Made by a program: the position numbers and the translations under genes. From the NCBI GenBank assembly GCA_020627965.1, contig JAHDFX010000025.1:1-39692 (forward strand): a DNA stretch of 39,692 bases, written 5' to 3'. Below the pieces are notes generated by a model. The model searched no databases. It saw only the letters and a list, made by a program, of their open reading frames with translations, and had not been told where the DNA came from. Every line of letters begins with the position of its first letter. Position 1 is the first letter of the stretch. The DNA comes from Saprospiraceae bacterium. Its GTDB lineage: Bacteria > Bacteroidota > Bacteroidia > Chitinophagales > Saprospiraceae. Shown here in pieces: positions 1,084-35,634 of the stretch.

Positions 1084-3120
1084 TTACTTCTGCGGCGTAC
1101 CTGCACCTACCGTAGCTTCTCTAAACCATACTTCTGTGTAACAGCCATTTTCATATTGCTTCGCAATATCACCACCGTAAGTTTCCGCACCTGCACACCA
1201 AACCATATTTTTTTCAGGATCTTTTCCATTAGTTTGGTTATAAGCACCTTGTTTGAAATAAATCAACTCTCCTTTATAGGCTATTGCTCGTTCTGTACCA
1301 TCTTGTCCTATAGGCGCAAATATTTTCATTACCTGCGCTGGTCTATCTGATGGTTTGACATATTCAGATGCGATAAGGTTTTTAGTAAATGTTTTCGTTT
1401 CATGCCCATCACTTTTGAAGGTGAGATACATGATGCCTTTGTATACATTCACTTCATAACTAAATTCTTCCCCCAATTCTATACCGTCGGCAGGTTCTGG
1501 AGGATAATCATCTTTGCTTGTTCCAATGACAGACATATCATGCCCCCAAACAGCGCTGGAATAATCCCACCTTTTTGAATTATCGCCTTCAGTATTGATT
1601 TCATAATTCCAAAAAACGGAACCTTTAGTATGTCCAGGAAATTTCTTATAAAATATCTTTAAAGGTTCATTTTCATGTCCTTCTCCACTATGAATTTGCC
1701 CAATCACTGTTGAGTAAGACGCTGCTACTCTGGCATCGCCGGAAGTAGAAACTTGCATAACCCTACAAGTGCCTGTTAGTTTACCTCCTTGTTCTGGCGT
1801 CCACTGTCTTTTTTCGTGTAATTCGGTTCTTGTATTGCTCGAGTTTTTTGAAGTGACTCCGGAGTTTGGCGTTTTATAGACCACCCAACGCCTGGTACCG
1901 TCAATGACCGTATAGAAAAAATCTTTGTGCTCAAAGTCAACGAGATTTTCTACATTTGTTCCGTCTCCCATCAGCATTTTAAATTTATCCATAAAAGGAA
2001 TTACCTCACTAGGGTAGACTGTTTTTTTACTTAAGCCATCATTTGCCTGGAAATAACCTGCATTAGATATGGCATCGTTACTGACTTCTATGCTTGCTGA
2101 TTTAAACCAAACTTCAGCGTAGTTGCCATCTGCATATTGTTTTTGAATATCTCCGCCGTGGGTTTCAGCACCAGAACACCAGACTTTATTGACTGCCGGG
2201 TCTTTTCCATTAGTTTGATTATAAGAACCAAGTTTGAAAAACAGTCCCTCATCAGCATAGGCATTTGCACGTTCCACACCATCCTGACCTATGGGTACAA
2301 ATATTTTTTTGACTTGTTCCGGCATGTCTGAGCGTTCTGCATATTCAGAGGAGATGAGATTTTTAGTAAATGTTTTGGTCTCGTGTCCTTTACTCGTGAA
2401 TGTGAGGTACATCACTCCCTTCTTCACTTCTACTTCATAACTCAGCTCTTCCCCCAAAGCTATACCATCTTTCGGTTCCTCTGGATAAGTATTTTTTGCG
2501 GTTCCAAGATCAGAAAAATCGTAGCCCCAGACAGGGTAAGAATAATCCCACCGTCCAGAATTGTCATCGCCAGCTGTATTGATTTCATAATTCCAAAAAA
2601 CGGAACCTTTAGTATGCCCAGGGAATTTTTTGTAGAATATTTTTAATGGTTCATTCTCATGCCCATCTGCACTATGAATCTGACCAATAACGACTGAGTA
2701 TGTAGCGGCTACCCTGGCATCTCCTGTAGTTGCTACATTCATTACCTTAAGCGTAGCTGTCAATTTAGCATCGGTCATTGGTGACCATTTTTTCAATTGA
2801 GCTAATTCTGTTCTTGTATTGTTTGAAGTACCGTGAGTATTCCCGGCATTAGGTGTCTTGAAAACAACCCAGTCTTTTTTGCCATCATTGGTCGTAAAAA
2901 AGAAATCTTTATGATCCAGATTGATTGCCTTTCCAGCATTAGAACCATCTCCTAAAATCAGATTCCACTGATCGAAAAATGATATAACATCACTCGGATA
3001 AGCCGCTTTTTGTCCGCTTGCTTTGTCCCCATCTTTAGCTGTATTGGAACAACTGTTGAGTGATAAGAAAATACTAAGGATAAAGAGGGTTGATAATGAT
3101 ATGATGATTTGCTTATTCAT
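1084..3120 (-). CDS. Lipoprotein with two tandem PL7-type alginate lyase domains
   Basis: The 678-residue protein has a lipoprotein signal (hydrophobic stretch, then LNSC with the lipid cysteine at residue 24). Two homologous domains of about 310 residues follow (roughly 42-350 and 370-675), offset by 328 residues. Each carries the polysaccharide lyase family 7 signatures: RTEL (R103 and R431), QIH (Q147/H149 and Q475/H477), and a FKxGxYNQ motif near the domain end that holds the catalytic tyrosine. The family cleaves alginate by beta-elimination. The signal implies attachment to a membrane, probably the outer one. The two domains are close to each other in DNA as well as protein, which points to recent internal duplication. 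There are no SusC/D or other polysaccharide-locus genes next to it. The PL7 call is from motifs; exact substrate preference cannot be read. Confidence 0.87.
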   Translation of the reverse strand: MNKQIIISLSTLFILSIFLSLNSCSNTAKDGDKASGQKAAYPSDVISFFDQWNLILGDGSNAGKAINLDHKDFFFTTNDGKKDWVVFKTPNAGNTHGTSNNTRTELAQLKKWSPMTDAKLTATLKVMNVATTGDARVAATYSVVIGQIHSADGHENEPLKIFYKKFPGHTKGSVFWNYEINTAGDDNSGRWDYSYPVWGYDFSDLGTAKNTYPEEPKDGIALGEELSYEVEVKKGVMYLTFTSKGHETKTFTKNLISSEYAERSDMPEQVKKIFVPIGQDGVERANAYADEGLFFKLGSYNQTNGKDPAVNKVWCSGAETHGGDIQKQYADGNYAEVWFKSASIEVSNDAISNAGYFQANDGLSKKTVYPSEVIPFMDKFKMLMGDGTNVENLVDFEHKDFFYTVIDGTRRWVVYKTPNSGVTSKNSSNTRTELHEKRQWTPEQGGKLTGTCRVMQVSTSGDARVAASYSTVIGQIHSGEGHENEPLKIFYKKFPGHTKGSVFWNYEINTEGDNSKRWDYSSAVWGHDMSVIGTSKDDYPPEPADGIELGEEFSYEVNVYKGIMYLTFKSDGHETKTFTKNLIASEYVKPSDRPAQVMKIFAPIGQDGTERAIAYKGELIYFKQGAYNQTNGKDPEKNMVWCAGAETYGGDIAKQYENGCYTEVWFREATVGAGTPQK

Positions 3121-10476: not shown

Positions 10477-11538
10477 TTATATGGCCAGGCGGATACCAAT
10501 AGCATGCGTACCGTTGAACGGATTCGTTGCTTTATAGGAATAATCGATACCAAATTTTGAATCGCCACCTTTGCTAAATGGCACCTGTATTGTAGCACCA
10601 GCAGCAAGTCCTGTATGAACATTTGTACGCTCTGCGTCATTGGTAATACCATCTTCATAACGGTATCCGGCACGTATCATGAACATTTCGTTGAAAGCAT
10701 ATTCAAGTCCAAGTCCAAACTGATCTTTACTAAAGGAATTAGAAGTAAAAGCTGCCATGATGCTTAACCTTTGCTTATCTTCCTGAAATTTCAGATCATA
10801 TCCGAGTCCTACATTAAACACAGAAGGTAAATCGAAAGTACGGATACGAGTTTCAGCGGTATACGACTCATTTCCATTTACAGGATCAGCTGTACTGGAA
10901 GGAGAGAATGTAGTATATGCAAAACCAGTTCCTTTATAACGCATGGGTACACCGATATTACGCAGGCTGATACCGATATTCAAGCCACCTGTATTGTATT
11001 GAAGCCCCGCGTCAAAAGCGAAACCTGTAGCACTTACATCACTTGTTCCCTGTTCTGAGATCAAGCGAGTTGTCATACCTACACTGATACGCTCTGAGAA
11101 GGTATGCGAATAACCGATACCCAGATTAAAGAATAATGGTTCAAAATTTACACCTACACCTTCAGGCTGGTTCACTGTAGTTACAGGGATTTCTCCAAAA
11201 TCAACAGCCATCAGCGATAAACCGAGTACGCCATTTTCGCCAATACGTTGTCCTACACCTAATCCATTCAGACGAATGTCAGAACCTTGCATGTAGAAAG
11301 TATTAGCGATTGTTAATTCAGTTTTGTTGATACCGGACAAACCAGCAGGATTGATACGAAGCGCATCAATACCACGTACAGACCCGATACCTAGACCATA
11401 CAGACCCGAGCTTCTAGCCCATGGATTAAGCAGTAGCTCATAAGCACCAGCCTGTCCCTGTCTGTCTGGATTACCTGCTTCCGCCTGAAATGCGAAAACA
11501 GTAAGTAATATAATGAGTAAAAATAAATATTTTTTCAT
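10477..11538 (-). CDS. PorV/PorQ-family outer-membrane beta-barrel protein
   Basis: The 353-residue protein has a signal peptide ending AEA (about residue 21) and then alternating amphipathic strands to a C-terminal HAIGIRLAI. The conserved start GAYELLLNPWARSSGLYG...GIDALRINPAGL is the recognisable PorV/UPF0164 motif. PorV works in type IX secretion as the shuttle that hands cargo from the translocon to the attachment complex; this copy may be a paralogue devoted to its neighbour. It is last in a same-strand series with the T9SS-type protein and TonB receptor, 83 bp after the former. Confidence 0.88.
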   Translation of the reverse strand: MKKYLFLLIILLTVFAFQAEAGNPDRQGQAGAYELLLNPWARSSGLYGLGIGSVRGIDALRINPAGLSGINKTELTIANTFYMQGSDIRLNGLGVGQRIGENGVLGLSLMAVDFGEIPVTTVNQPEGVGVNFEPLFFNLGIGYSHTFSERISVGMTTRLISEQGTSDVSATGFAFDAGLQYNTGGLNIGISLRNIGVPMRYKGTGFAYTTFSPSSTADPVNGNESYTAETRIRTFDLPSVFNVGLGYDLKFQEDKQRLSIMAAFTSNSFSKDQFGLGLEYAFNEMFMIRAGYRYEDGITNDAERTNVHTGLAAGATIQVPFSKGGDSKFGIDYSYKATNPFNGTHAIGIRLAI

Positions 11539-11580: not shown

Positions 11581-11612
11581 GCTACTGAAAGACTATGAAG
11601 CCTTTCAGTAGC
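11581..11612 (-). other. Intercistronic 11-bp hairpin between the T9SS-type protein and PorV-like genes
   Basis: GCTACTGAAAG (11581-11591) and its exact reverse complement (11602-11612) flank a 10-nt loop, 9 bp past the stop codon of the large gene. A short U-containing stretch follows but no strong tract. It could be a partial terminator or an mRNA 3'-end stabiliser. Confidence 0.6.
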
Positions 11613-11621
11613 ACTATTATT

Positions 11622-14600
11622 TTAAAGCCCGGTAGCGTCAAATTCACGAACACCACCAAACCACTTAATGATCTTTTCGCCTAAGCCCGAAGCTGAAGCA
11701 TCAATATGAATGATGTATACACCACTGGCAACAGTAATACCACTAGCATTTTTCAAATCCCATTCCTGAGAAGTAATCAGTTGGTCAGAGCCTCTTGTAG
11801 GAGAAGGCTGTGCATTACGATTATAACGACGAATCAACTGACCGTCTAATGAGTAAATACTGATGGTAGCCTGTGGAGGCAAATTGGTGATTTTCACAAT
11901 TTGCTCAAACTCTGAACTCTCATATGGAGAGAAACCATAGTACGGATTGGGTACTGCACGAATCAGATCAAGCGCATTTTCTGCCACCTCAACATCATCA
12001 ACAGTAGCATCCAGTGCTGTATCAAAAGTAAACTGATATTTTGGATAACCATTATTATCAGCAACAGGATCACTTGTCTGGAATGGATTATTCACACGCA
12101 ATTTAAACGTAACATCATTAGGAATCAAGCCATCCTCAATAGAATTCAATTCTACATTTGGTATTGGCGCTGAAGTCCATGAAACGCTTGTCCACGCATC
12201 AATTTGCTGAATAATACTACCTTCAAGAGCAGTTCTGATATCAGCACACTCATCATAAGTTGTTTTTGCTACATAAATATAATGTTGAGCACCATAAGAC
12301 ATCTGCGCTAAAGAACCATCAGGTTGATCTACAATAAACCTGAAAGGAGATGGATTCCAAAGCATGTCTGCCCCTGTATTATCAGGCAGGTTAGCAGAAA
12401 TATTCTGGTCGAAGAAAGTATTTTCTCCAAAGAAAACATTCAGTCTTCTTCCTGTTTCTACATCAACAGCATAGCCTGGGAACCAGGACATACCAGTACC
12501 TGTACCATCAGGTTGTCCGTCTTTACCTACAGATTCTGCACTACGAATACCATACTGACCAGCTACATCATCAGGATTGAACCCAAGTTCAGTCTCGTAG
12601 TAATTGGAGAAAGTATTAAGTACTACACAACGACTCCATTTAGATTTATCTGAAGTCAATACAATATCTACATTAGCAATTTCCTTTGTCAATGCCTGCG
12701 CTTCAGCCGATGTTCCCCATAATCTGGTTCTGATGAAATTACCTAAGGAAGCATTGGAAGTAGCAGGATGCGGAGTCAGGAAGTAATCTCCATTACCAAC
12801 ACCTTGTACCGCAGGGTCAGGAGATGATGTAGTCATAGCAAATGGATACCAGGTACCATCAAGAATACCAGTATTACCATAAACATTCTCTGGATCACGA
12901 GGAATATCCGGTTCATTCGTTCCATTCTTGATGAAATTGGTTAGCCATAGCGTACCTACTTCATTATCAGCCATAGCCCCATACCATTCTACTCCTGCTG
13001 GATCTGCATACTCAGTATTTGCAGAAACAAAACCATTTGTAAATAAAGGATCATCAAAAGCATCAAGTGTTTGTTCAAAATTAACAGAAAGTCCTAATTC
13101 AGGAATCAACTGTTCAAATGGAGAACCAACAGGCTTTTCACTGGTAACAGACACTCCATTACCTTCCAATACCCAGTAGAAAGGATCTAAAAGCTCCGAA
13201 TCAGTCATAATCGTATCTTCAAGTGAAACAGTGTATGTACCACCTTTTACAGCTAATGGATCATATACTTTCACTTCAAAAGGTCCCGCATTTTCTTTAT
13301 AGGTAATTTCACTTTGAATTGTATTGGCTACAATAGCATCTACAGATTCTTGTGTTAAATCCAATGAATTTCCACCAATTCCCTCTCCATCAAGGCGAGT
13401 GATCTGAGCTACATCACCATAACTAGCATTTACAACTGCACCTCCAAACTCAGGGTCATTCTTATGTGGAATAGCCGTATAAGTAGTGATATTGCGGCGT
13501 CCCTGAAGATAAGGTGTCTGTTGTGTGTTTTCAGGATCAACTGGATCAAATGTTACGTAATTATTATATGCGTAGGCAATTGCCGTGTAATAGTATTTCT
13601 TATGATTGACAAGGCGAGGATTATCAACAGCAAATAAATCATCTCTAATGTTAAAAGAATGTCTAATGCCATCATCATCACCATCAACTTTTATAATAGG
13701 TGTAAATACATCTATTTCAACCTCTTCTTCAAAAGGTTCATAATTAACAATTTTTGCTACTCCATCTCTAATATCTACATTAGCTACTATTTTAGCCTCA
13801 TCGCAATCCTGAAAATTATCGCAAGGAGGAGTTGGTGTTGACAATTGATAAATTACATATCCCTGGAAATTATAAACAGAATCTTGATACCCTGGTGGAA
13901 TCAAAGGATCTTTCTCAAAATACTCTTCATTGAAATTATTCGAGCTAGGGCCATTGGTAATCGTAATTACTAATTCACGATCCAATTCGATAATAGATAA
14001 ATCTGGAGCATCTGGTCCGTCTGTAATGTCAAAACAGTTATCAAACAGTCCTTGTGCGATACGATCAGCACGTAATAGCTTATTAAATGAAGGGCAAGGA
14101 TAGGCTACATTAGACACCCAAACAGCCCCAACAATTACTTCATTAGTAGTTCCTGGTTCCAAAGTAAAAGGACCTGAAGATTGGACAAAACGACGATCAT
14201 CCGGAGCATTACTTACACTACATTCAGACCATGTACCTGCAGAATTATCTGAAGGATCACTTGGGAACATATAAGGTGTTGGGCCAGTTCCTTCCAAATA
14301 TCCATCTCCTCCTTCTTCAATAGGAGTATCATCTTTCCACGACCCCGAGAGATAACCGTAAAAATCTTCCGCTTCCTCTGGGTTACCAGTTGGTGAGAAG
14401 TCATTATTATAATATACAAAAGCACCCATTCCCAATTCATCACCATTCTCGTCTCTTGGTCCTCGGAAATAGTCTACACCTAACATAGGCACTTCGGTTC
14501 CATACCCATTCACTAGACCACCACCAGATGAGCAATCAGGATCCGTTGAGGTACCATTATATACAATACCTAAAGATTCTTCTACCTGACACCCAACAAA

Positions 14601-15575
14601 ATCGTTGTTCCAACATCCCAAATCAGGATCAACCCACTGTCCAACATAAGTACTATCTAATACATCCGTTGCCTTGTTTAGCAATGTGTATTTATAAAAG
14701 CTCATGTTATTTATAGGGTTATTAGTTGCAAACCCAAAAGCCAAAGCTTGTACTTCCATGCCAATCTGTGCACCACCAGTTTCTGTGTGGATATTTCCTT
14801 TATCATTATACACCCACCATACCATCTGGTCAGCATAAGCTACATCATCCAGTGATTGTGCATCACAACCGATAACGCCAATTTGAGGGATATCCCCTTT
14901 GTTGGGATCATAAATACCATCACCATCTTCATCATAAAAAGGTGCTAAATCCTGATTAGGTAATGCAAAGCCAAGCTGTTGTTCAAAATATGGATTTCCT
15001 CTTGCAGGCCATTGCAATAAAGAAGGAGCAGGTGTTCCTTCGATAGTATTATCAGGTACACCGTCTCCATTATCATCTGCCAGGTAGTCAGCGACTAATT
15101 GGTCAATATCTTCTCCTAATACAGTGAAGTGTCTATCCCAATTTTGACAAACAGACTGTTCAGTTTCTCCTGTTGCGTTATCGATTGGTCCTGGCCAGAA
15201 GTCATCTCCTGTCTGACGGTAGGTTTGTGCAGCTATTTTTAAGTTTCCGGCAGCATCAAAACCACCGATCCAGAGGGCTGCAGCGAAGATGGAAGAAATT
15301 TCTTTTTCTCCAGGTTCAACATTAGGAATAATATAACGACCATCACTCAAATCCCACCAGAGATCTCCACCACCGAGTAACCTTGCACGCACATTATTTA
15401 TATCAAGGTCTGTTTGGGAAACAGAGGCTGTACAGTCATTACGTAGAGAAACATTGTTCCCTGTATTAGTATCATCCGGTCTTCCTTCCGGATTTTCTAT
15501 ATTCTCTTTGGCAATAGCAGATTGTGCGACACCTGCTATCAAAAACAAAGCGATTAAGAACTTAATTTTATTCAT
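11622..15575 (-). CDS. Giant T9SS-type secreted surface protein, 1317 aa
   Basis: The signal peptide ends near residue 22 (AIA). Residues 40-515 form an N-terminal module with a disulfide-capable start (RNDCTAS), Ca-binding D-x-N/D-G-D repeats near 175 and 215 (DNGDGVPD, EDGDGIYDP) and many aromatic repeats. Residues 520-717 include a fibronectin-III-like unit (FQGYVIYQL ... NHKKYYYTAIAYAY). Residues 718-1220 form a second module (ITRLDGEG ... SKWSRCVV ... GQPDGTGTGMSWFPGY). The end is a T9SS type A-like C-terminal domain (ISIYSLDGQLIRRYN ... GVYIIHIDA ... KIIKWFGG) preceded by AVPNPYYGFS. No enzyme motif is recognisable. The two modules have separate paralogues at 22344-24185 and 20541-22310. 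It lies between the TonB receptor and the PorV-like gene. Confidence 0.88.
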   Translation of the reverse strand: MNKIKFLIALFLIAGVAQSAIAKENIENPEGRPDDTNTGNNVSLRNDCTASVSQTDLDINNVRARLLGGGDLWWDLSDGRYIIPNVEPGEKEISSIFAAALWIGGFDAAGNLKIAAQTYRQTGDDFWPGPIDNATGETEQSVCQNWDRHFTVLGEDIDQLVADYLADDNGDGVPDNTIEGTPAPSLLQWPARGNPYFEQQLGFALPNQDLAPFYDEDGDGIYDPNKGDIPQIGVIGCDAQSLDDVAYADQMVWWVYNDKGNIHTETGGAQIGMEVQALAFGFATNNPINNMSFYKYTLLNKATDVLDSTYVGQWVDPDLGCWNNDFVGCQVEESLGIVYNGTSTDPDCSSGGGLVNGYGTEVPMLGVDYFRGPRDENGDELGMGAFVYYNNDFSPTGNPEEAEDFYGYLSGSWKDDTPIEEGGDGYLEGTGPTPYMFPSDPSDNSAGTWSECSVSNAPDDRRFVQSSGPFTLEPGTTNEVIVGAVWVSNVAYPCPSFNKLLRADRIAQGLFDNCFDITDGPDAPDLSIIELDRELVITITNGPSSNNFNEEYFEKDPLIPPGYQDSVYNFQGYVIYQLSTPTPPCDNFQDCDEAKIVANVDIRDGVAKIVNYEPFEEEVEIDVFTPIIKVDGDDDGIRHSFNIRDDLFAVDNPRLVNHKKYYYTAIAYAYNNYVTFDPVDPENTQQTPYLQGRRNITTYTAIPHKNDPEFGGAVVNASYGDVAQITRLDGEGIGGNSLDLTQESVDAIVANTIQSEITYKENAGPFEVKVYDPLAVKGGTYTVSLEDTIMTDSELLDPFYWVLEGNGVSVTSEKPVGSPFEQLIPELGLSVNFEQTLDAFDDPLFTNGFVSANTEYADPAGVEWYGAMADNEVGTLWLTNFIKNGTNEPDIPRDPENVYGNTGILDGTWYPFAMTTSSPDPAVQGVGNGDYFLTPHPATSNASLGNFIRTRLWGTSAEAQALTKEIANVDIVLTSDKSKWSRCVVLNTFSNYYETELGFNPDDVAGQYGIRSAESVGKDGQPDGTGTGMSWFPGYAVDVETGRRLNVFFGENTFFDQNISANLPDNTGADMLWNPSPFRFIVDQPDGSLAQMSYGAQHYIYVAKTTYDECADIRTALEGSIIQQIDAWTSVSWTSAPIPNVELNSIEDGLIPNDVTFKLRVNNPFQTSDPVADNNGYPKYQFTFDTALDATVDDVEVAENALDLIRAVPNPYYGFSPYESSEFEQIVKITNLPPQATISIYSLDGQLIRRYNRNAQPSPTRGSDQLITSQEWDLKNASGITVASGVYIIHIDASASGLGEKIIKWFGGVREFDATGL

Positions 15576-15599: not shown

Positions 15600-15629
15600 C
15601 ATGATGTAGTATGTAGATACTACATCATG
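15600..15629 (-). other. Intercistronic 13-bp hairpin between TonB receptor and T9SS-type protein genes
   Basis: CATGATGTAGTAT (15600-15612) and its exact reverse complement (15617-15629) flank the 4-nt loop GTAG. It lies 11 bp after the TonB receptor stop codon and 25 bp before the next start codon. No U tract follows, so a processing or stability role within one transcript is as likely as termination. Confidence 0.6.
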
Positions 15630-15640
15630 CTTAAACGTTT

Positions 15641-18600
15641 TTAGAATGTAAGCACAGCTCCCGCATAGATTCTACGTGGAAGACCAAAATGTGCTGATTT
15701 TTCTAATCTCAGATTGTATAGGTATCTGTATGCATCAGGATTTACCTGACTTAAAGCTTCTGTTTCTCCAGTTGGTGACGCTAACCATCCGTCATCTGTT
15801 GCAGACTGTGTATAACCATATACCTGAACGATGTTTCTGGTATTCAACAGATTTTGGCTTCTTACATATACATTCAGGTAAAGAGGATTCTTTCCATCAG
15901 CTTTACCACCAATTTTGAAATCTTTATCCAATCTTGCATCAATTCTGGAAGTCCAGGGTAGACGGGCTCCATTGAAGCTTCCTCCTAATGCACCTGTACC
16001 ACCACGAGCATTACCATCACTTCCGGCGGTAGCACCTATAGAGACTTCCTGTTTAGGAGTATATGGACGTCCTGAACCTACACTCATTAATAGGTTCAAT
16101 CCTGTATTAGATAAAAAGTCTTTACCAAACCAAACAGGACCATTGTATTCACTACCTTCTCCATAACGGTAATCCGCACTTAAGACAATATTGTGGCGCT
16201 GGTCAAAATCGTAAGGATAGATAATACGAACATCACCTGTAGAAGCTGAACCTCTGGAAGAATTCGCATTAGAACCAGTACCATCAGCAAACTGTAGTGT
16301 ATAGTTGGCTTTCAATGATAAATTATTAGTCTCTCTTAAATCGTATTGGAATGTAAAGCCCTTAACTGTACCGAAGTCACGATTATCATAACTTGTATAG
16401 TTATTTGGCCAAGCATATAGATACTGTCTCTCATTCACTTCATCTCTTTGCTCACGATAGTAAGCAGAAATTTTAATGGCGGAAGTGTTAGAAATTTTTT
16501 GCTGGAAACCTACCTGGTAATCAATTGTTCTTGACGGTCTCAGATTTGGGTTATCAATAATACTACCAACGTTTGTTCTATCTCTGAAGTAATAGTAATC
16601 CAGTGCTGTTGCCTGAGAATTACTTGGTCTTCTTGAAAGAATATCGTAATGTGCAAAGAAACCAGCATCTTTAGATAATGGGAAAGAGAAAGAGATACGT
16701 GGCATCACGGTAATCTGTGGTTCATAATCAACAAACGTACCTGTAGGGTCAAAATCTTCTGACTTGATATCGTCATTTTCATTATCCAGATAAGGTTTAA
16801 TTACTCTACTACCAAATTCAGCAGCAGGGTTGTTTAATAAATTACCATCTGCATTATACCATTGGTCACCATCTCGATAAGCAATAACAGTACCAGCAAG
16901 TTGGTCGCCGTAAACAACAAAATCATTCTCTACATTAGAAGGATGACTAATTCCCTGTGTTTCGCTAACTGTTTGAGTAGCATATAAAGAATAAGGATCA
17001 GATAAAACCTTTTGGTTAGCATCATAGCGATCTATACGTAAACCCAAGTTGAAGTAAATTTCATTTTTCAATGAGAATTTATCCTGAATATAACCTGCGG
17101 CATATATTGGTTGTACTGGCGCTACTTCTCTAGTCAGGTTACCATTCGCATCTCTTTTAGAGAAGAAATCTTCAAATGTAACATCTGTTCCTACAGCATT
17201 ACCGGTATAATCATATCCCCAGTAATCCATTCTCAAACGTCCATAAGTACCACTGATTAATTCATCAGCAGAGAAAAGGTCTAATGAAAGCTGGTCAGGA
17301 GTCAATCCATCTAGGTTTACATATTCATTCTGTCCTAGCCCTAACTGATCTCTCAGGTTACGTCCGAAAGTTGAACTAACATTACTAAAATCATAAGTTG
17401 CTGCACTTACAGTATCTCCATCAACAACTATATTCTGAAATGAAGGATCACTATTCGGATTAATTTCAAGTCCTTGATTAACCAGTTGATTCCCTTGAAA
17501 CCATAAAGCATAAGGTCCCACACTAAACCCACTACCAATATCATAACCTCTATCAACACGTTGCTCGTAATACACACCAAATTGGATAGAATGTTTACTT
17601 TGATTTTCTGAATTAGGTGTTACGATGTCAAAACCACCACTTGCACTAACCCCTATTTGATTATTTTGTCTTTTGAAAAACTCATTAAAAGGGAAGCCTG
17701 CGCTTGAGTACAACTGAAAAGGATAGTAATTAGTCGTACTAAAACCACCATTTACATCTCCAATCAGGTCATCAACATCATACTGATAATATGCTGCCAA
17801 AGCAGGATTAATATCTCCTCCTGTAAAACCAGTTACAGCATCAGTATAATCAATAGAGCGGTAGATTCCATCATCTCCCTGTTCATATAAATAGTCTATC
17901 TCCTTATCAACACGTCCTACATAACCATAATTGAACAGATTGTCTTCGTGTTCAACATCTTGTAGCAAATCTTTATTTTGCGTATAATCAAATTGTAGTG
18001 TATAGTTGATATTTTGGATTAGCGAGCTTGTACGTGCTTCTTTTTCTTCATCGGTTAAATTCAATCCACTTCCACCAATTTTGTGACGGAAACGTACATA
18101 TCCACGCCAGTCTGTTTCAGCATAAGTTGGATTTCTATCGTAATTCAATAAACGATAAAATTCGTAAGCTTGCTGTGCGCTGGAATTAAATATTTGACCA
18201 CCAAGCGTCACATTGATGCCACTTGTTGGTTGAATATCAAATTTACCATTGATGGTATAATCCGTATCACGGGCATTCTGACGATAATTTTGTCTAACAA
18301 CATTTTGGTCAGATATATTATAAATATTGAAGCCTGCCCCTGAGCCTGGATCAGTTAATAAAGAGCTGACGAAATCATCAGAAGCTCTGTATGAGCCAAT
18401 ATAAGATGGAGTAGGTTCTTTGACTGTTTGAAACTGACCAGAAACACGGAAACCTAAAATAGTTTCTTCCTGCTCTGCTCCAGATGCATTGGTTCTTGTT
18501 CTTTTAATCAGCGGACCAGACAAACTGGCTGTCGCAAAATTGAAACCATAATCATCCAGGAATTCAGAAGTTTCCATGTCTACGGAACCACTATAAGTAC

Positions 18601-19276
18601 TAGCAGCACCTTTGGTTACGATATTGGTTACACCACCAGTAACGTCACCATAAGCTGCGGGGATTCCCCCTGTGATGACCTGGATTTGCTCAATATCTTG
18701 AGCAGGAACAGAGCGTCCACGTACCCTTACACCATCGACATAGATGATTTGGTCACCCTCACGAGCACCACGAAAACTAACGTCCTCTCCTTCTTTGTCC
18801 TGAGATACACCACCAGTTGTAGCGACCAGTGTGGTAACACTACGAGTAGGTAATTTCTTAATTTCTTCACCTCCCAGTGTGTTACCAGAGGCGGTTTCAT
18901 CCTGCTTGATTAATGGAATTTTATACGCTATTACTACGACTTCGTCCATAGTAACGCCTACTCCCATTTCTACATCAAGAGGAACGGTTTGACTGGAACT
19001 TACCTGTACACCAGTAATTTCTTTGTCTGCATAACCTACGTAAATTGCTTTTACGCTGTAAGTACCGGGGTCGAAGCCCGTAAAGGAGTAGTTTCCGTCT
19101 AAGTCGGTCGTTGTACCAGACTTTTGGATACCATCCTTGATCAAGACGACGTTTGCAAAAGGAAGTCCTTCCTTTGTCTTTTCGTCAAAAATTTTTCCTT
19201 GTATGGACTGCGTTTGCCCGAAGGCCACTGCGCTCATCAACATACAAGCTAATACAAGATAAATGTAACGTGCCAT
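15641..19276 (-). CDS. TonB-dependent receptor with N-terminal carboxypeptidase-regulatory-like domain
   Basis: The protein has 1211 residues when started at the ATG at 19276, where a clean signal peptide begins (MARYIYLVLACMLMSAVAFG, then Q). An earlier in-frame start at 19399 would overlap the upstream gene and add a second hydrophobic stretch. Residues about 22-105 are a CarboxypepD_reg-like beta-sandwich (IQGKIFDEKTKEGLPFANV). Residues about 120-230 are the plug (IKKLPTRSVTTLVATTGGV, then DVSFRGAREGDQIIYVDG). A large outer-membrane barrel ends in the typical terminal phenylalanine (GAVLTF). No SusD partner is present, so it is not a standard SusC/D glycan importer. The neighbours suggest that a T9SS-exported surface protein is its partner. 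Substrate unknown. Confidence 0.92.
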   Translation of the reverse strand: MARYIYLVLACMLMSAVAFGQTQSIQGKIFDEKTKEGLPFANVVLIKDGIQKSGTTTDLDGNYSFTGFDPGTYSVKAIYVGYADKEITGVQVSSSQTVPLDVEMGVGVTMDEVVVIAYKIPLIKQDETASGNTLGGEEIKKLPTRSVTTLVATTGGVSQDKEGEDVSFRGAREGDQIIYVDGVRVRGRSVPAQDIEQIQVITGGIPAAYGDVTGGVTNIVTKGAASTYSGSVDMETSEFLDDYGFNFATASLSGPLIKRTRTNASGAEQEETILGFRVSGQFQTVKEPTPSYIGSYRASDDFVSSLLTDPGSGAGFNIYNISDQNVVRQNYRQNARDTDYTINGKFDIQPTSGINVTLGGQIFNSSAQQAYEFYRLLNYDRNPTYAETDWRGYVRFRHKIGGSGLNLTDEEKEARTSSLIQNINYTLQFDYTQNKDLLQDVEHEDNLFNYGYVGRVDKEIDYLYEQGDDGIYRSIDYTDAVTGFTGGDINPALAAYYQYDVDDLIGDVNGGFSTTNYYPFQLYSSAGFPFNEFFKRQNNQIGVSASGGFDIVTPNSENQSKHSIQFGVYYEQRVDRGYDIGSGFSVGPYALWFQGNQLVNQGLEINPNSDPSFQNIVVDGDTVSAATYDFSNVSSTFGRNLRDQLGLGQNEYVNLDGLTPDQLSLDLFSADELISGTYGRLRMDYWGYDYTGNAVGTDVTFEDFFSKRDANGNLTREVAPVQPIYAAGYIQDKFSLKNEIYFNLGLRIDRYDANQKVLSDPYSLYATQTVSETQGISHPSNVENDFVVYGDQLAGTVIAYRDGDQWYNADGNLLNNPAAEFGSRVIKPYLDNENDDIKSEDFDPTGTFVDYEPQITVMPRISFSFPLSKDAGFFAHYDILSRRPSNSQATALDYYYFRDRTNVGSIIDNPNLRPSRTIDYQVGFQQKISNTSAIKISAYYREQRDEVNERQYLYAWPNNYTSYDNRDFGTVKGFTFQYDLRETNNLSLKANYTLQFADGTGSNANSSRGSASTGDVRIIYPYDFDQRHNIVLSADYRYGEGSEYNGPVWFGKDFLSNTGLNLLMSVGSGRPYTPKQEVSIGATAGSDGNARGGTGALGGSFNGARLPWTSRIDARLDKDFKIGGKADGKNPLYLNVYVRSQNLLNTRNIVQVYGYTQSATDDGWLASPTGETEALSQVNPDAYRYLYNLRLEKSAHFGLPRRIYAGAVLTF

Positions 19277-19395
19277 AAGCTTGAATCGGTTTTGAATCGG
19301 TTTAATCCACAATGTTAATGAAATGTTAACCAATAAAAAAATAATTTCTAGACATTTTAAGAGACTTGCCAGCTTTATGACAAACATCTGAAATG

Positions 19396-20343
19396 TCATT
19401 TTTGTATTCCCAAAATTTTATCTGCCAAAACGTTGGCTAAACGCTCTTTTGATTCGACTGTCCAGCCTGCAACGTGTGGCGTAAGTATCACATTTTCAAC
19501 ATCGTATAATTTATTATATGATATTTTTTCCTTAGTGGTAAATGTATTTGGTTTTTCATTTTCAAATACATCGAGACAAGCTCCAAGTACTTGTCCGTTT
19601 TGCAATCCTGCCAGCAGATCAACAGTGTGTATTACCTTACCTCTTGAAGTATTGATAATAATGATCGGCTTGGCAAAGCGATTTAAAAAGTTCTGATCTA
19701 CTAGATGATTTGTTTCATCTTTTAAAGGCAGATGCAAACTTATTATATCGGCTTCATTGAATATGTTATCCATATCCGTTTCTTCTACGTGTGGATGATT
19801 ATGCGTGTAGTAATTTTTATATTTATCATAAGCCAACACCCGCATTCCCATTCCTGTCAATTTAGTAGCAAAGGCGCTTCCTGTATGTCCGAAGCCAATA
19901 ATACCTATGGTTTTCCCCATAATTTCGATACCACGCATAGCTTCTCTGCGCCAAATATGCTGACGCACTTCTGCATCAGCTTGCAAAAATTTATTATTCA
20001 AAGCCAGTAACATCCCCAAAGCATGTTCTGCAACAGCATTACGGTTTCCTTCAGGTGCGCTGTGCACAGCTACACCACAGGCTTTAGCATAATCCAGATC
20101 AATAATCTCTAAGCCGGAGCCTACCCTCCCGATAAACTTCAGTTGAGTAGCTTTATCCAGCATAGTTTTATCCATCAGTATTTTACTGTTGATAATTATA
20201 CCTGAGTATCCAGCAATGATTTGGCTTGTTTCGTCTGTGTGAATTTTTGGGTAATATTCACAGTCATAACCGGCAGCTTCCAGTCGTATAGCGAGTACTG
20301 GATGTACATCGTCTGTGATGAGAACCTTACCTGATAGATGCAC
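19396..20343 (-). CDS. D-2-hydroxyacid dehydrogenase, phosphoglycerate-dehydrogenase-like
   Basis: The 315-residue protein has the full catalytic triad R234 (NTSRGK), E263 (FENEKP) and H290 (LTPHVAGW) and a Rossmann fingerprint IGIIGFGHTG around 146-155. It oxidises or reduces a 2-hydroxy acid with NAD(H). It resembles the SerA catalytic core but lacks the C-terminal ACT domain, so 3-phosphoglycerate is a guess. The start is GTG at 20343. It lies 119 bp upstream of the TonB receptor on the same strand and could be co-transcribed, although the metabolic link is unclear. Confidence 0.9.
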   Translation of the reverse strand: MHLSGKVLITDDVHPVLAIRLEAAGYDCEYYPKIHTDETSQIIAGYSGIIINSKILMDKTMLDKATQLKFIGRVGSGLEIIDLDYAKACGVAVHSAPEGNRNAVAEHALGMLLALNNKFLQADAEVRQHIWRREAMRGIEIMGKTIGIIGFGHTGSAFATKLTGMGMRVLAYDKYKNYYTHNHPHVEETDMDNIFNEADIISLHLPLKDETNHLVDQNFLNRFAKPIIIINTSRGKVIHTVDLLAGLQNGQVLGACLDVFENEKPNTFTTKEKISYNKLYDVENVILTPHVAGWTVESKERLANVLADKILGIQK

Positions 20344-20372: not shown

Positions 20373-20480
20373 AAAAAAAATCCTCAAGTGTACGAATCTC
20401 TGTCTCTTTTTAACAATTGAGAATACTTTTTATTCGTTGAGCCTCTGTACAGGACAAAAATCTATTTTCAAATTAAATCT

Positions 20481-20516
20481 GGTGAATTGTCAGTCATTCA
20501 TAACTAACAATTCACC
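20481..20516 (-). terminator. Possible terminator hairpin of the split surface-protein pair
   Basis: GGTGAATTGT (20481-20490) and its exact reverse complement (20507-20516) flank a 16-nt loop, 24 bp past the stop codon of the 589-residue protein. It has no strong U tract. The rest of 20344-20540 shows only the promoter candidate and a motif at 20525-20540. Confidence 0.45.
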
Positions 20517-20524
20517 ATCAATCA

Positions 20525-20540: not shown

Positions 20541-22310
20541 TTATCGCCCACCTATCCATTTGATCGTTCTAACTCCTTTCTCAGATTCATTTGCATCTAT
20601 GTGTATCATATAAGTTCCGAAAGGCACTACTTGTCCATTATTACTTTTCATATCCCAGGTCAATACATCAGTCTGATTTTTTAGTTGACGTACTAGTCGG
20701 CCATCTATGGTATAAATAGAAATTATTGACCGTTCAGGTAAATTAGTAATACTGACCTGTTCTATAGAAGAAACAAAAGCAGGATTAGGTAGCACTTGCA
20801 CTTCAGGCAAATATTCTACTTCCTGTGTATTTACATTTTCACTGATCGTAAACTGATATGCTCCATAACCATTATTATTATTTGAATAGTCAGTTACCTG
20901 AAAATGGTTATTCACTCTTAATTTAAAAGTGACATCATTGGGAATTAGTCCATCAGTAATGGAGTTCAGTGGCACAGTAGGTACAGGTGTAGATACCCAT
21001 GAAAGATTAGTCCATATATCAAGTATTTGAATAATACTACCATCTAGTGAAGCACGGATAGCATCACACTCATCATAAGTAGTTGTAGAAACATAAATAT
21101 GATGCTGGGCTCCATAAGACATTTCTGTCAAAGCGGTTGTAGGGCTTACTATTTGTTCAATTGGTGATGGATTCCATATCATATCTGCTCCTGTATTATC
21201 TGGTATATTAGCACTGACATTCTGGTCAAAGAAGGTGTTTTCACCAAAGAAGACATTTAACCTTCTTCCTGTTTCCACATCAATAGCATACCCTGGAAAC
21301 CAGGACATCCCCGTACCCGTTCCGTCGGGTAAACCGTTCTGATCTACAGAAGCATCGCTACGTACACCAAAATGTCCGGCAGTAGCATCAGGATTAAAAC
21401 CAAGTTCCATTTGATAATAATTTGAAAAAGTATTGACGACTGCACAACGACTCCATTTAGACTTATCTGAAGTCAATACAATATCTACATTATTAATTTT
21501 CTTAGTTAGTGGCTGAGCTTCATTAGAAGGTCCCCAAAGTCTTGTTTTGATAAAATTGGCTAAAGCAACATTAGAAGATGCCGGATGTGGTGTAATATAA
21601 TAATCTCCATTTCCAATCCCGGGAATCCCGGGATCAGGGCTTGATGTAGTCATAGCAAACGGATACCAGGTTTCATCAAGGATGCCATCATTACCATATA
21701 TATTGACCGGATCATGGATTTCATCTGGTTCACTAAGTCCATTCTTAATAAAGTTAGTTATAAAAAATGTTCCTATTTCTTCATCTGCCATAGCTCCATA
21801 CCATTCTACACCAGCAGGATCCGCATATTCTATACTTGCATTTATAAAGCCATTCGTATCGTATATGTCCTCAAAAACATCTTGTGTCTGTTGAAATTTG
21901 ATCGATATACCCAGGTCTGGTATTTGTTCCTCATAAGCTGTCATACCTACGGGTTGCTGTCCTTGAAAAGAATAACCATTTCCTTCCAAAAGCCAAAAAA
22001 AAGTACTGTTCAATATGTTATCTCCCAGATCACCATCTATAATACTAATCGTATACGTACCTAATTGTAAGGCACTTTCGTCGATCACTTTCACTTCAAA
22101 TGGTGCTGCGCCAATTTTGTAGGTAATTTCACTTTGAACATTATTGTTTACAATAGCATCTGCTGAAGCTTGGGTCAGGTCAAGGAAATACCCGCCTGCT
22201 CCCTCTCCGTCCAGGCGGGTAATTTGCAATAGGTCTCCATTTGAATACTGTCCTTGTAAATATATTGGCAGTATAAGCGTGATCAGTAATAAGTAAAGTA
22301 ACTTGTTCAT
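20541..22310 (-). CDS. T9SS-type surface protein, paralogue of the C-terminal half of the giant protein
   Basis: The 589-residue protein has its own signal peptide (ending YLQG, about residue 20). It is colinear with residues 718-1317 of the large protein at 11622-15575 and shares blocks such as ITRLDGEG, EYADPAGVEWYGAMAD, LTSDKSKWSRC and GTGMSWFPGY. It ends in a T9SS type A-like domain (ISIYTIDGRLVRQL ... GTYMIHIDA ... RTIKWIGG). No enzyme signature is seen. It starts 33 bp after the gene for the other half, in the same order as in the large protein, so the two are probably co-expressed and may assemble together. Confidence 0.88.
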   Translation of the reverse strand: MNKLLYLLLITLILPIYLQGQYSNGDLLQITRLDGEGAGGYFLDLTQASADAIVNNNVQSEITYKIGAAPFEVKVIDESALQLGTYTISIIDGDLGDNILNSTFFWLLEGNGYSFQGQQPVGMTAYEEQIPDLGISIKFQQTQDVFEDIYDTNGFINASIEYADPAGVEWYGAMADEEIGTFFITNFIKNGLSEPDEIHDPVNIYGNDGILDETWYPFAMTTSSPDPGIPGIGNGDYYITPHPASSNVALANFIKTRLWGPSNEAQPLTKKINNVDIVLTSDKSKWSRCAVVNTFSNYYQMELGFNPDATAGHFGVRSDASVDQNGLPDGTGTGMSWFPGYAIDVETGRRLNVFFGENTFFDQNVSANIPDNTGADMIWNPSPIEQIVSPTTALTEMSYGAQHHIYVSTTTYDECDAIRASLDGSIIQILDIWTNLSWVSTPVPTVPLNSITDGLIPNDVTFKLRVNNHFQVTDYSNNNNGYGAYQFTISENVNTQEVEYLPEVQVLPNPAFVSSIEQVSITNLPERSIISIYTIDGRLVRQLKNQTDVLTWDMKSNNGQVVPFGTYMIHIDANESEKGVRTIKWIGGR

Positions 22311-22343
22311 AATACGTCTTTTTATAGTTAAAATTATTTGGAT

Positions 22344-24185
22344 TTATTGTCCCCCAATCCATTTGATAGCTTTCATTCCGTTATTAGAAGTACTCGCATC
22401 TATATGAATAATATAGGTTCCCATTGGTACGATTTGTCCATTATTGGCTTTCATATCCCAAGTTAATGTATCTCCCTGGTTATTTAGCTGGCGGATTTGT
22501 TTTCCATCTATGGTATAAATGGAAATGACTGATTGTTCAGGTACATTATTGATGGTAACTTCTTGTGAAGCACCAAAATATCCAGGATTTGGGAATACAC
22601 TAAGTGCGTTCAAAGCCGTACTTTCAGGGTGAACATCTTCTACGCTCGTTGCCAGATCGAAACAACCATCAAATAAATTCTGAGCCAGGGAATCTGCTGC
22701 CAGTATTTTATCAAATGTTGGGCAGGGGTATTGAACATCTGGCACCCATAATGCTCCGGTCACAATCTGATTAGTAGCACCAGGCTCCAGCGTAAAAAGT
22801 CCGGTAGACAGAACAAATCGACGATCTCCTGGAGCATTATTTTCAGAACATTCCGACCAAGCATCTGGTGAAACATCAGCAGGCACAGATGGGTACATGT
22901 AAGGAGATGGATTAGTTCCCTGCATATATCCATTCCCTCCATACTCAACTGGAGTATCATCTTTCCAAAAGCCAGCCAGATAGTTGTAGTAATCTTCAGT
23001 TGTCTCAGGATTACCTGTAGCAGAGAAATCATTATTATAAACGACAAAACTACTCATACCTAGTTCATTTCCATTTTCATCTATTGGACCTCTCAATATA
23101 TCGACCCCAAACATGGGTACTTCTTCCCCATAACCATTAAGGACACCCAAACCAGTAAGACAATCCTCATCTATTACTTCACCATTATACACAATACCCA
23201 TCCTTTTATCTATCTGGCAGCCGACATAATCATTATTCCAACATCCCAGATCCGGGTCTACCCATAAACCGATATAAGTATTCTCCAGTACATCTGCAGA
23301 TCTATTAATAAGCTTGTAATTATAGAAAGTCATATCATTAATAGCATCATCAGTTGCATAAGCAAAAGCCATCATTTGTATTTCTATACCTATTTGGTCA
23401 CCCCCTGTTTCGGTGTGAATATTTCCTATATCATTATATACCCACCAGATCATTTGATCCGCATAAGGAGCAAAAGCGCAATCATCTATTCCACTAACAG
23501 CTAGAATAGGTATATCTCCATCATAAGGATTGTAAATACCATCTCCATTCTGATCGTAAAATGGAGCTAAATCCTGATCCGGTAAATTAAAACCGACTTC
23601 TGTGGCAAAGTACGGATTTCCTCTTCCTGGCCATTGGAGCAATGATTCAGCAGGTGTATTATCCACTGAATAGTCCGATTGTCCATCACCATCATCATCA
23701 CTTAAATAGTCTGCACGTAAATCATTGATTTCTGTACCCAATACACTAAAATGTCTATCCCACTGTAAACAGGTGATGATATCTGTTTCGAAAGCTGTCT
23801 CTTCAATTGGCCCAGCCCAGAAATCGTTACCCGCCTGTCTATAAGTTTGTGCAGCCATTTTAAGATTACCCGCAGCATCAATCCCTCCTACCCATAAAGC
23901 ACTGGCAAAAACGGACGATACTTCCGGTTCTCCTGGTGCCACATTAGGTATAATGTACTTTCCATTACTCAAATCCCACCACATATCACCTCCACCCAAT
24001 AATCGGGCTCTTACATTATTGATACTAAGATCGACCTGAGAAGTAGATGCTGTACAGCTATTGCGTAATTCGGTATTATTGGTTTCTGGTCTGGCTGGTT
24101 TTATTCCATTCGGAAATTTAATATCTCCTGCCATACCAGTAGCAAAATAAAGTACAGTCAGTATAATTGTAATTCTAGTTTTCAT
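22344..24185 (-). CDS. T9SS-type surface protein, paralogue of the N-terminal half of the giant protein
   Basis: The 613-residue protein has a signal peptide (cleaved near residue 19) and residues 40-520 colinear with residues 40-515 of the large protein: LRNSCTAS, NNVRARLLGGGDMWWDLS, AAQTYRQAG, and Ca-binding-like DDDGDGQSD and DQNGDGIYNP. The FN3-like middle of the large protein is absent. A T9SS type A-like domain is attached instead (FPNPGYFG, ISIYTIDGKQIRQL, AIKWIGG at the end). It is first of a two-gene unit with the C-half paralogue. A good distal promoter lies at 24335-24366 and a second, start-proximal element at 24190-24197. Confidence 0.88.
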   Translation of the reverse strand: MKTRITIILTVLYFATGMAGDIKFPNGIKPARPETNNTELRNSCTASTSQVDLSINNVRARLLGGGDMWWDLSNGKYIIPNVAPGEPEVSSVFASALWVGGIDAAGNLKMAAQTYRQAGNDFWAGPIEETAFETDIITCLQWDRHFSVLGTEINDLRADYLSDDDGDGQSDYSVDNTPAESLLQWPGRGNPYFATEVGFNLPDQDLAPFYDQNGDGIYNPYDGDIPILAVSGIDDCAFAPYADQMIWWVYNDIGNIHTETGGDQIGIEIQMMAFAYATDDAINDMTFYNYKLINRSADVLENTYIGLWVDPDLGCWNNDYVGCQIDKRMGIVYNGEVIDEDCLTGLGVLNGYGEEVPMFGVDILRGPIDENGNELGMSSFVVYNNDFSATGNPETTEDYYNYLAGFWKDDTPVEYGGNGYMQGTNPSPYMYPSVPADVSPDAWSECSENNAPGDRRFVLSTGLFTLEPGATNQIVTGALWVPDVQYPCPTFDKILAADSLAQNLFDGCFDLATSVEDVHPESTALNALSVFPNPGYFGASQEVTINNVPEQSVISIYTIDGKQIRQLNNQGDTLTWDMKANNGQIVPMGTYIIHIDASTSNNGMKAIKWIGGQ

Positions 24186-33519: not shown

Positions 33520-35634
33520 ATGTTGAGACTACTATTTGCAGCTATGCTGCCTATGCTTTTTATTGTGCAGATCGAGGCACAACATTCCATTGCCAGAGAA
33601 TGGAATGAACTGACGCTAGAGTCTATAAGAAATGACTTGGCACGCCCCACTGTTCATGCCAGAAACCTGTTTCATACCTCTATCGCTATGTATGATGTAT
33701 GGGCAGCTTATGACGATGTATCTTCTCCCTACTTTCTCGGACAGACTGTGGATGGCTATACTTGTTCATTTAGTGGCATCCCGATTCCTGATAATACAGA
33801 GACCGCCCGGGAAGAGGCAATAAGTTTTGCAGTATACAGGTTGCTCCGCCATCGTTTCCAGAGTACTTCATCTGTTGTTGCAAATGTATTTCCACAATAC
33901 GACAACCTAATGGCTACTAATGGTTATGACATCAATAATACTTCCATTGATTATAGTACAGGAGATCCGGCTGCATTGGGCAATTATATTGCTCAGGAAC
34001 TAATCGCCTTTGGTTTATTGGATGGTAGTAATGAACAAAATGCTTACGTAAATCAATTCTATAGTCCTATAAATCCTGACTTGGTTGTAGAGTTATCTGG
34101 CAATCCTGACATTACCGATCTAAATCGCTGGCAACCCCTCACACTTGATTTTTTTATTGACCAAAGTGGAAATGTATTCCCAACCAACACTCCGCCTTTC
34201 CTGAGTCCTGAATGGGGTGAAGTCAGTCCCTTTGCACTGAGTGCTACGGATAAGACTATTAATACCAGAGACGGCTATAACTATGAAGTTTACCATGATC
34301 AGGGCGCCCCTCCTTCCATTGATATTACTTCAGTTGCTGCTTCCGAAGAATACAAATGGAATTTTTCTTTGGTATCTATGTGGTCCTCTCACCTCGATAC
34401 CGCAGATCAGGTGATGTGGGATATTTCGCCCGCTTCTATCGGTAATATCCAGTCTTACCCGACAGATTTTGCTGGTATGCAGGCCTTCTATGATGATGTA
34501 AATGGTGGTGATCCGGGAACTGGTCATGCACTTAATCCTATTACAGGAATGTCTTATACTCCACAAATGGTACGTCGGGCAGATTATGCCAGAGTATTGG
34601 CTGAATTTTGGGCAGACGGACCTGAATCTGAAACACCTCCGGGGCACTGGTATACTATTCTCAATTATGTCAGTGACCACCCTATGTTTGAAAAACGCTT
34701 TGAAGGGGCAAGTAATATTCTGGATGATCTGGAATGGGATATAAAATCCTATTTTACATTAGGCGGTGCCATGCATGATGCCGCTATTACAGCCTGGGGC
34801 AATAAAGGCTGGTATGATTATATTCGTCCGGTATCCGCTATTCGGGCAATGGCTGAATATGGACAATGTTCTGATCCTGCACAGGCTTCTTATCATCCGG
34901 GAGGCTTACCCTTGATACCTGATTTTATAGAACTTATAGAAGCTGGTGATGTACTTTCCGGCGCTTCCAATCAACATGTCGGAAAAGTAAAAGTCTATGC
35001 CTGGCGCGGGCCAAATTACATTAGTAATCCGCTTATCGACGAGGCTGGCGTGGGCTGGATACGGGCTGAGGACTGGTGGCCTTATCAGCGTCCGACTTTT
35101 GTTACGCCTAACTTTGCTGGTTATGTATCCGGTCACTCTACGTTTTCCAGAGCTGCAGCAGAGGTCATGACTGCCCTTACGGGTAATGCATTTTTTCCAG
35201 GCGGAATGGGTGAGTTCAGTGCTACGCAAAACCAGTTTTTAGTATTTGAGGAAGGGCCCAGTGAAGATATTACTTTGCAATGGGCAACCTATAGAGATGC
35301 ATCCGACCAGTGTAGTTTATCCAGGATATGGGGCGGTATACATCCGCCTGCTGACGATATTCCTGGTCGCCTGATGGGAATAGAGATTGGAGTGGATGCT
35401 TTTGTTTTAGCTAAACAATATATTGATGGTGCAATATGTGTTGATTATAGAGTAGTTACCGATACCTCTATCGGAGGAAGTGTTTGTAAAGCCGATAATA
35501 CTATCCTATCAGATACGAATATCCAGTCTGGAGCGAATGTAAATTTTAAAGCTGGTCAGCTTATTAAGTTAGATGCTGGTTTTCAGTCTAATGTACAAGC
35601 CGATTTTTCTGCTGAAATAGAGGATTGTCAGTAG
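33520..35634 (+). CDS. Secreted vanadium-dependent haloperoxidase/PAP2-like protein with C-terminal 3-coathanger-stack-type domain
   Basis: The 704-residue protein has a signal peptide ending IEA (about residue 20). Residues about 25-640 are the PAP2/vanadium haloperoxidase-like fold. The vanadate/phosphate pocket is visible: YQRP (R near 525), SGHSTFSR (H539) and SRIWGGIHPPADD (R near 602, H608). Bacteroidota relatives are annotated as vanadium-dependent haloperoxidases; acid phosphatase activity is possible. Residues about 645-704 (ADNTILSDTNIQSGANVNFKA then GQLIKLDAGFQSNVQADFSAEI) look like the short beta-repeat domain called 3-coathanger stack, common at the end of secreted Bacteroidota proteins and likely an export or anchoring module. 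The gene stands alone; a hairpin array follows the stop codon. Confidence 0.88.
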   Translation: MLRLLFAAMLPMLFIVQIEAQHSIAREWNELTLESIRNDLARPTVHARNLFHTSIAMYDVWAAYDDVSSPYFLGQTVDGYTCSFSGIPIPDNTETAREEAISFAVYRLLRHRFQSTSSVVANVFPQYDNLMATNGYDINNTSIDYSTGDPAALGNYIAQELIAFGLLDGSNEQNAYVNQFYSPINPDLVVELSGNPDITDLNRWQPLTLDFFIDQSGNVFPTNTPPFLSPEWGEVSPFALSATDKTINTRDGYNYEVYHDQGAPPSIDITSVAASEEYKWNFSLVSMWSSHLDTADQVMWDISPASIGNIQSYPTDFAGMQAFYDDVNGGDPGTGHALNPITGMSYTPQMVRRADYARVLAEFWADGPESETPPGHWYTILNYVSDHPMFEKRFEGASNILDDLEWDIKSYFTLGGAMHDAAITAWGNKGWYDYIRPVSAIRAMAEYGQCSDPAQASYHPGGLPLIPDFIELIEAGDVLSGASNQHVGKVKVYAWRGPNYISNPLIDEAGVGWIRAEDWWPYQRPTFVTPNFAGYVSGHSTFSRAAAEVMTALTGNAFFPGGMGEFSATQNQFLVFEEGPSEDITLQWATYRDASDQCSLSRIWGGIHPPADDIPGRLMGIEIGVDAFVLAKQYIDGAICVDYRVVTDTSIGGSVCKADNTILSDTNIQSGANVNFKAGQLIKLDAGFQSNVQADFSAEIEDCQ

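Follow-up and report, generated by a model that had tools for sequence, protein, structure and literature searches.

In the type IX secretion system (T9SS) of Porphyromonas gingivalis, the attachment-complex protein PorZ keeps its tail, which is bound by PorQ, a barrel of the PorV family, according to two reports (PMC10202324, PMC5562754). The stretch of DNA analysed here (contig JAHDFX010000025.1 of the Saprospiraceae bacterium assembly GCA_020627965.1, positions 1 to 39,692, hereafter the window) encodes a one-piece surface protein of 1317 residues, the giant, and also a pair of adjacent genes, the N half and the C half, which correspond to its two ends. All three proteins found their best NCBIfam match in the PorZ C-terminus (NF052228). 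The match was restricted to the tail, at 25-42 bits for the giant and the halves, compared with a whole-protein cut-off of 260 bits. The window also differs from PorZ-PorQ in that its operon contains a TonB-dependent receptor and in that the giant carries an extension after its sorting domain. Both halves resembled T9SS type A substrates (TIGR04183, cut-off 23 bits), each having a signal-peptide-like start and a sorting domain that passed the cut-off (26.1 and 26.3 bits), whereas the window giant scored 17.9 bits and its body contained no Pfam domain.

The TonB receptor of the window, with its CarboxypepD_reg domain, stands beside a large surface protein, as does the SusCD-type receptor with its surface lid. 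The giant is, however, not recognizable as such a lid. The SusD profile matched none of 14 giants, and the signal region of the window giant has no cysteine and thus no lipoprotein signal; a T9SS tail and a PorV-family barrel are found instead. In BamG-BamH, a FadL-family barrel holds surface subunits (PMC12578637). There, a barrel of the PorV/FadL kind touches surface proteins, as may be the case in the window, but those partners are lipoproteins. The split mitochondrial cox2 genes likewise redistribute one protein over two genes (PMC5374615), but the window keeps a one-piece paralogue, and neither half appears to lack a part needed for export.

The split pair and the parts of the giant to which it corresponds are located as follows.

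22344..24185, minus strand: N half, 613 amino acids (aa); signal-peptide-like start, N module, T9SS-type tail
20541..22310, minus strand: C half, 589 aa; signal-peptide-like start, C module, T9SS-type tail
22311..22343, minus strand: spacer between the halves, 33 nt, in frame; no stop of its own and no terminator-like match
11622..15575, minus strand: one-piece giant paralogue, 1317 aa
14025..15503, minus strand: giant N module, residues 25-517
13425..14024, minus strand: giant middle region, residues 518-717, absent from both halves
12006..13424, minus strand: giant C module, residues 718-1190
11625..12005, minus strand: giant tail, residues 1191-1317; PorZ-like sorting domain and conserved C-terminal extension

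In BLASTP alignments of the three proteins, residues 8-511 of the N half matched giant residues 6-517 (320/512 identical, 63%; 687 bits), and residues 23-588 of the C half matched giant residues 718-1308 (364/592 identical, 61%; 710 bits). Both modules are thus significantly similar to the giant, and the gene order of the halves is the module order within it. The halves resembled each other only in the tail-bearing stretch (62/139 identical), and both had hydrophobic, signal-peptide-like starts, as judged by eye from the translations. These alignments agree with the original prediction, made from the window alone, of paralogous and colinear proteins in the same gene order, with complete ends on both halves. 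It had also described residues 520-717 as an FN3-like region missing from the pair. The region is indeed missing, but the label was not borne out, as no Pfam family matched any of the 14 giants at E up to 0.05. Profiles of the N and C modules gave no match to solved structures (PDB) at E up to 1.

The same pair was found in G342, a genome of the same genus (G000 denotes the genome of the window, other G numbers the genomes of relatives, and L numbers loci), and in the same place, upstream of the same dehydrogenase gene. The N halves of G000 and G342 are 63% identical and the C halves 62%. The window halves, and these alone, share one reading frame, interrupted by a single TAA. The spacer measures 33 nt in the window vs 188 nt in G342, and as 188 is not a multiple of three, the shared frame is not conserved. 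A sequencing error or frameshift between 22310 and 22344, which was named at the outset as an outcome that would undo the case, is ruled out, because both sides of the break bear an additional end, a tail on one and a start on the other, and because both genes recur in G342, out of frame and with a different spacer. The same evidence bears on simple fission, in which a new stop, tail and start were inserted in the middle of one copy of the giant. Such an event would agree with the gene order, the adjacency and the one frame with one TAA in the window. Nevertheless, we consider it very unlikely: the frame is lost in G342, the missing middle region and the double tails require further steps, and the broken giants of G250, G336, G258 and G560 yield first pieces without a tail, unlike the pair. 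These four giants (L088, L089, L090 and L110 in G250, G560, G336 and G258, respectively) are split in two frames by decay or assembly indels, two of the four being in assemblies with two contigs.

The direction of the event was read from the distribution of the two forms. Giant matches were present in 245/396 genomes of the order and 316/396 genomes of the class (any match counted); within the family, any match to the C module was found in 358/398 genomes and to the N module in 363/398. Because two or three candidates were scored per genome in these wide searches and solo copies were read from the matches listed, such copies are under-counted. Among the matches listed, nearly all were one-piece frames of about 1,230-1,550 aa. 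Within the genus, the pair was found in G000 and G342 out of six genomes, two of the four without it being only 69% complete, and was not seen among the matches listed in the family searches. With the giant spread through the class and the pair in two genomes of one genus, the one-piece giant is the ancestral form and the pair is derived. The proposal that genomes with one form would give the direction was thereby answered. The opposite course, fusion of an older separate pair into the giant, is favoured by the adjacency of the pair only. We give it almost no credence and take it as ruled out by the class-wide one-piece giant, the form seen throughout the class among the matches listed. Moreover, the solo C proteins of genus g57 were tested for a grouping with the C halves to the exclusion of the giants; one such clade was rejected (p 6e-64), and these solo proteins, judging from this test, are of separate origin.

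The remaining genes of the locus place the giant in a conserved operon.

20480..20517, minus strand: terminator-like hairpin, 17 pairs, directly 3' of the C half; a consensus match only
19396..20343, minus strand: 2-hydroxyacid dehydrogenase-like gene, separating the pair from the operon
15641..19399, minus strand: TonB-dependent receptor (CarboxypepD_reg, Plug); lies upstream of the giant as part of its conserved operon
10477..11538, minus strand: PorV/PorQ-family barrel, downstream of the giant (NF033709, 135 bits vs a cut-off of 90)

The minus-strand order is N half, C half, dehydrogenase-like gene, TonB receptor, giant and PorV/PorQ-family barrel, followed by GreA and HIT-domain genes. The barrel passed the family cut-off given above and did not reach the equivalog cut-offs of PorV (250) and PorQ (220). 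We examined 79 named loci, mostly from Saprospiraceae metagenome-assembled genomes and including Membranihabitans and Aureispira. The TonB gene was upstream of the giant in 70/79, the PorV-family gene downstream in 74/79, and both were present in 68/79. Every one of the nine loci lacking the TonB gene was at a contig end, as were three of the five lacking the PorV-family gene. In two Aureispira loci (L164, L186), GreA lay behind the giant with no PorV-family match between, and another tail-bearing frame preceded the giant. The 20 best-scoring loci of the class-wide search (the window itself, five of the family and 14 from outside the family) all had TonB and PorV-family genes flanking the giant. 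The portions of the literature searched contained no description of an operon of TonB receptor, giant and PorV-family gene. A consensus scan of the window region gave 14 terminator-like matches vs 8.4 expected. As one hairpin lies directly behind the C half and none in the 33-nt spacer, the halves are probably co-transcribed in the window as one bicistronic unit. Two further hairpins flank the giant gene, at 15600-15629 (13 pairs) before it and at 11581-11612 (14 pairs) after it.

Each module also occurs alone. The window genome has a solo N protein of 619 aa (C105), whose 9.6-kb contig holds no C module, and other solo N proteins with no C module beside them were found in genomes including G396, G397 and G398. 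In G502, G450, G378 and G477, solo C proteins were found with no N module beside them. We also observed four solo N-module genes in tandem in G498 (L091 3096-10891) and a TGA stop interrupting a solo N gene in G378 (L103 5272-6984). The original prediction had treated the locus as a Rosetta-stone case, in which the two modules work together. The modules are indeed one piece in one lineage and separate but adjacent in another, which is the arrangement on which such an argument depends. Mutual dependence of the parts is made less likely by the solo proteins of both kinds that have no partner next to them, and the matched stretches described below concern the giant and the C half. With each module found alone, the fact that the paired genes are neighbours argues only modestly for a complex of the N and C modules.

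The junctions of the halves indicate how the pair may have arisen. In the N half, the N module runs straight into a tail alignable with that of the giant; in the C half, the start runs straight into the position equivalent to giant residue 718. Copies lacking the C module (N module, middle region and tail, 837-851 aa) stand beside full giants in 3/79 loci (L157, L181, L189), and more than one N-bearing frame was present in 10/79 loci, the G342 pair included. Complementary internal deletions in two copies would produce the pair without the acquisition of a tail or a signal. The earlier claim that fission must acquire a new signal peptide as well as a new tail is not supported, since internal deletions suffice and the C-deleted copies of the three loci have their own tails. 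We propose that duplication placed copies of the giant upstream of the dehydrogenase gene in the ancestor that the window genome shares with G342. One copy would have lost the middle region and the C module, leaving signal, N module and tail, and the other the N module and the middle region, leaving signal, C module and tail. That one event gave both halves is preferred but not proven.

Separate trees of the N and C modules, which had been suggested as a check, placed the two halves differently. Their giants were drawn from the best-scoring ones, not at random, and 3/49 rows, each truncated by a contig or locus end, were dropped from the N tree. The C half was nested with the G000 and G342 giants, with support of 100/99 for the whole module and 100/96 for segment A (defined below). 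The N-module results weigh against a single event. In the full tree, the N half fell in an older solo-N clade (support 100/98); its grouping with the G000 and G342 giants only, the C105 copy excluded, was rejected (p 0.001), and the two N halves as sisters were disfavoured (p 0.015). One event for both halves was only not rejected, with p 0.26 when the C105 copy was included and p 0.155 in a second N tree. In this second tree, made without the solo-N rows (except the pair and C105) and without the G450 C122 giant, the N halves and C105 were sister to the five giants of the genus, whose own clade was weakly supported (88/61). The pair could accordingly come from two sources, the N half from an older lineage of solo N proteins, of the kind of C105 and the 560-aa proteins, and the C half as a recent deletion copy of the giant beside it. 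This agrees with the solo-N placement of the N half, with the rejection of its grouping with the two giants alone, and with the C half, by contrast, grouping with those giants. On the other hand, several solo-N rows are long-branched and, without the solo-N rows, one event was not rejected; the G342 N half starts much like the giant and is 75% identical to the N module of the G342 giant. We regard an origin from two sources as possible but rather doubtful, and retain duplication with complementary deletions as the preferred route.

The shortened forms also differ from the giants in their tails. The PorZ model matched all 14 giants at E up to 0.05. After the sorting domain, the giants have a C-terminal extension with R-x-x-D near the end. 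In the full-length frames of the 79 loci, 77/84 contained it by a strict pattern and six of the other seven by eye, and it was present in 20/20 of the best-scoring class loci. The strict pattern was absent from 8/8 shortened forms, so that these are probably sorted differently from the giants. We suppose that the halves are exported by Sec and then by the T9SS; without the extension, and with a more ordinary type A tail, they probably take the general sorting route. We take the giant to be an ancient surface protein of the class that is produced along with a TonB receptor and a PorV-family barrel of its own. Its tail, PorZ-like and extended, probably stays intact and bound to the neighbouring barrel, on the model of PorZ and PorQ, and the extension may belong to this retention. 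Eight PorV-family matches in the window genome (some of them pieces of one gene, two below the cut-off) mean that other barrels could serve for retention.

In the C module, two stretches of the giant were matched to the C half by genome.

12648..12971, minus strand: giant residues 869-976, first stretch
12147..12473, minus strand: giant residues 1035-1143, second stretch

These stretches form segment B, and residues 718-863 and 977-1034 form segment A; the giants and C halves compared were those of G000 and G342. In segment A, the giants were 77% and the halves 74% identical, and giant vs half within a genome 63-64%. In segment B, giant and half within a genome were 70-71% identical, vs 55% between the giants and 56% between the halves. 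Sites patterned by genome vs by orthology numbered 0 vs 17 in segment A and 27 vs 5 in segment B (Fisher 4e-9). The trees of the two segments disagreed, and the approximately unbiased (AU) test rejected the opposite groupings in segment A (p 0.0025 and 0.0008) and in segment B (p 0.0012 and 6e-5), and in a boundary-free runs test the observed pattern was reached by 0/10,000 shuffles. Gaps of 6, 2 and 1 residues were common to giant and half by genome, whereas gaps of 1 and 2 residues were shared by orthology, all of these outside segment B. The N module showed no mosaic, with 2 sites by genome and 27 by orthology. Between the halves of each genome, the tails were 52 and 51% identical in amino acids, vs 45 and 41% between orthologues, and the nucleotide pattern was 26 by genome, 5 by orthology and 6 cross; homogenisation of the tails was set aside, the stretch being short.

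The gaps shared by genome and the 27 matching sites make gene conversion within each genome the simplest cause of the matched stretches. After the species separated, the two variable stretches would have been exchanged between giant and C half in each genome. Three observations tell against this. The segment boundaries were set after the pattern was seen; silent sites lean in the same direction only weakly (p 0.052); and in the solo C proteins of genus g57, segment B sites by genome vs by orthology were 9:4, 3:4 and 1:3, so that a mosaic repeat hinted at by the segment tree was not borne out by the site counts. The weak silent-site signal would suit convergent adaptation of the two surface proteins to one ligand with no exchange of DNA. 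So would the concentration of variability in these stretches. The G000 and G342 giants are least alike at residues 901-960 (44%, vs 57-95% in other 60-residue windows), and the lowest 60-residue windows of the giant lie within the stretches in G000-G342 and G000-G358, and within the second stretch in G398-G358. Exchange is the better fit to the 27 matching sites and to the gaps (6, 2 and 1 residues) that giant and half have in common within a genome, and the gaps shared by orthology fall outside the stretches; convergence therefore seems unlikely to us. With gene conversion as the cause, the exchange would have kept the stretches matched, most simply since giant and C half meet the same species-specific partner. 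That the most variable patches of the C half are matched to the giant suggests such a shared partner.

The whole explanation, namely an old giant, duplication with complementary deletions, tail-dependent sorting, later exchange by genome and a shared partner, is the one we favour, if by a small degree of confidence. It builds on the homology, the distribution, the operon, the tail difference and the mosaic as observed. From these we infer the deletion route, an origin of the mosaic by gene conversion and the shared partner, as well as co-transcription, export and retention by the barrel. Several further points speak against it. The pair is carried by only two genomes. The terminator scan of G342 gave a weak match between its two halves but nothing 3' of the C half, at chance level (4 found, 4.0 expected), which makes co-transcription less certain there. 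Two copies of full length, G450 C122 and the second one of L141, also end without the extension. Contact among the halves, the giant, the receptor and the barrel is conjectural.

Elsewhere in the window, a 678-aa protein (1084-3120) contains the alginate lyase domain PF08787, and a 704-aa protein (33520-35634) combines DUF6851 with a second domain of the vanadium chloroperoxidase type.

The analysis points to a class-wide operon of a TonB receptor, a surface protein of ~1,300 aa without a Pfam domain and a PorV-family barrel. It also gives the direction of the event and indicates that a T9SS surface protein may be split up with no need for a new export signal. The two variable stretches of the giant are places to seek partner contacts. 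More speculatively, and in our view improbably, the C half may be a second, freely sorted copy of the recognition module of the giant, its two variable patches kept in register with those of the giant by gene conversion, so that a giant held by its barrel at the TonB receptor and a split pair, released or anchored elsewhere, would recognise the same species-specific ligand or partner. If true, one gene would have given rise to both a capture protein and a matched surface receptor.

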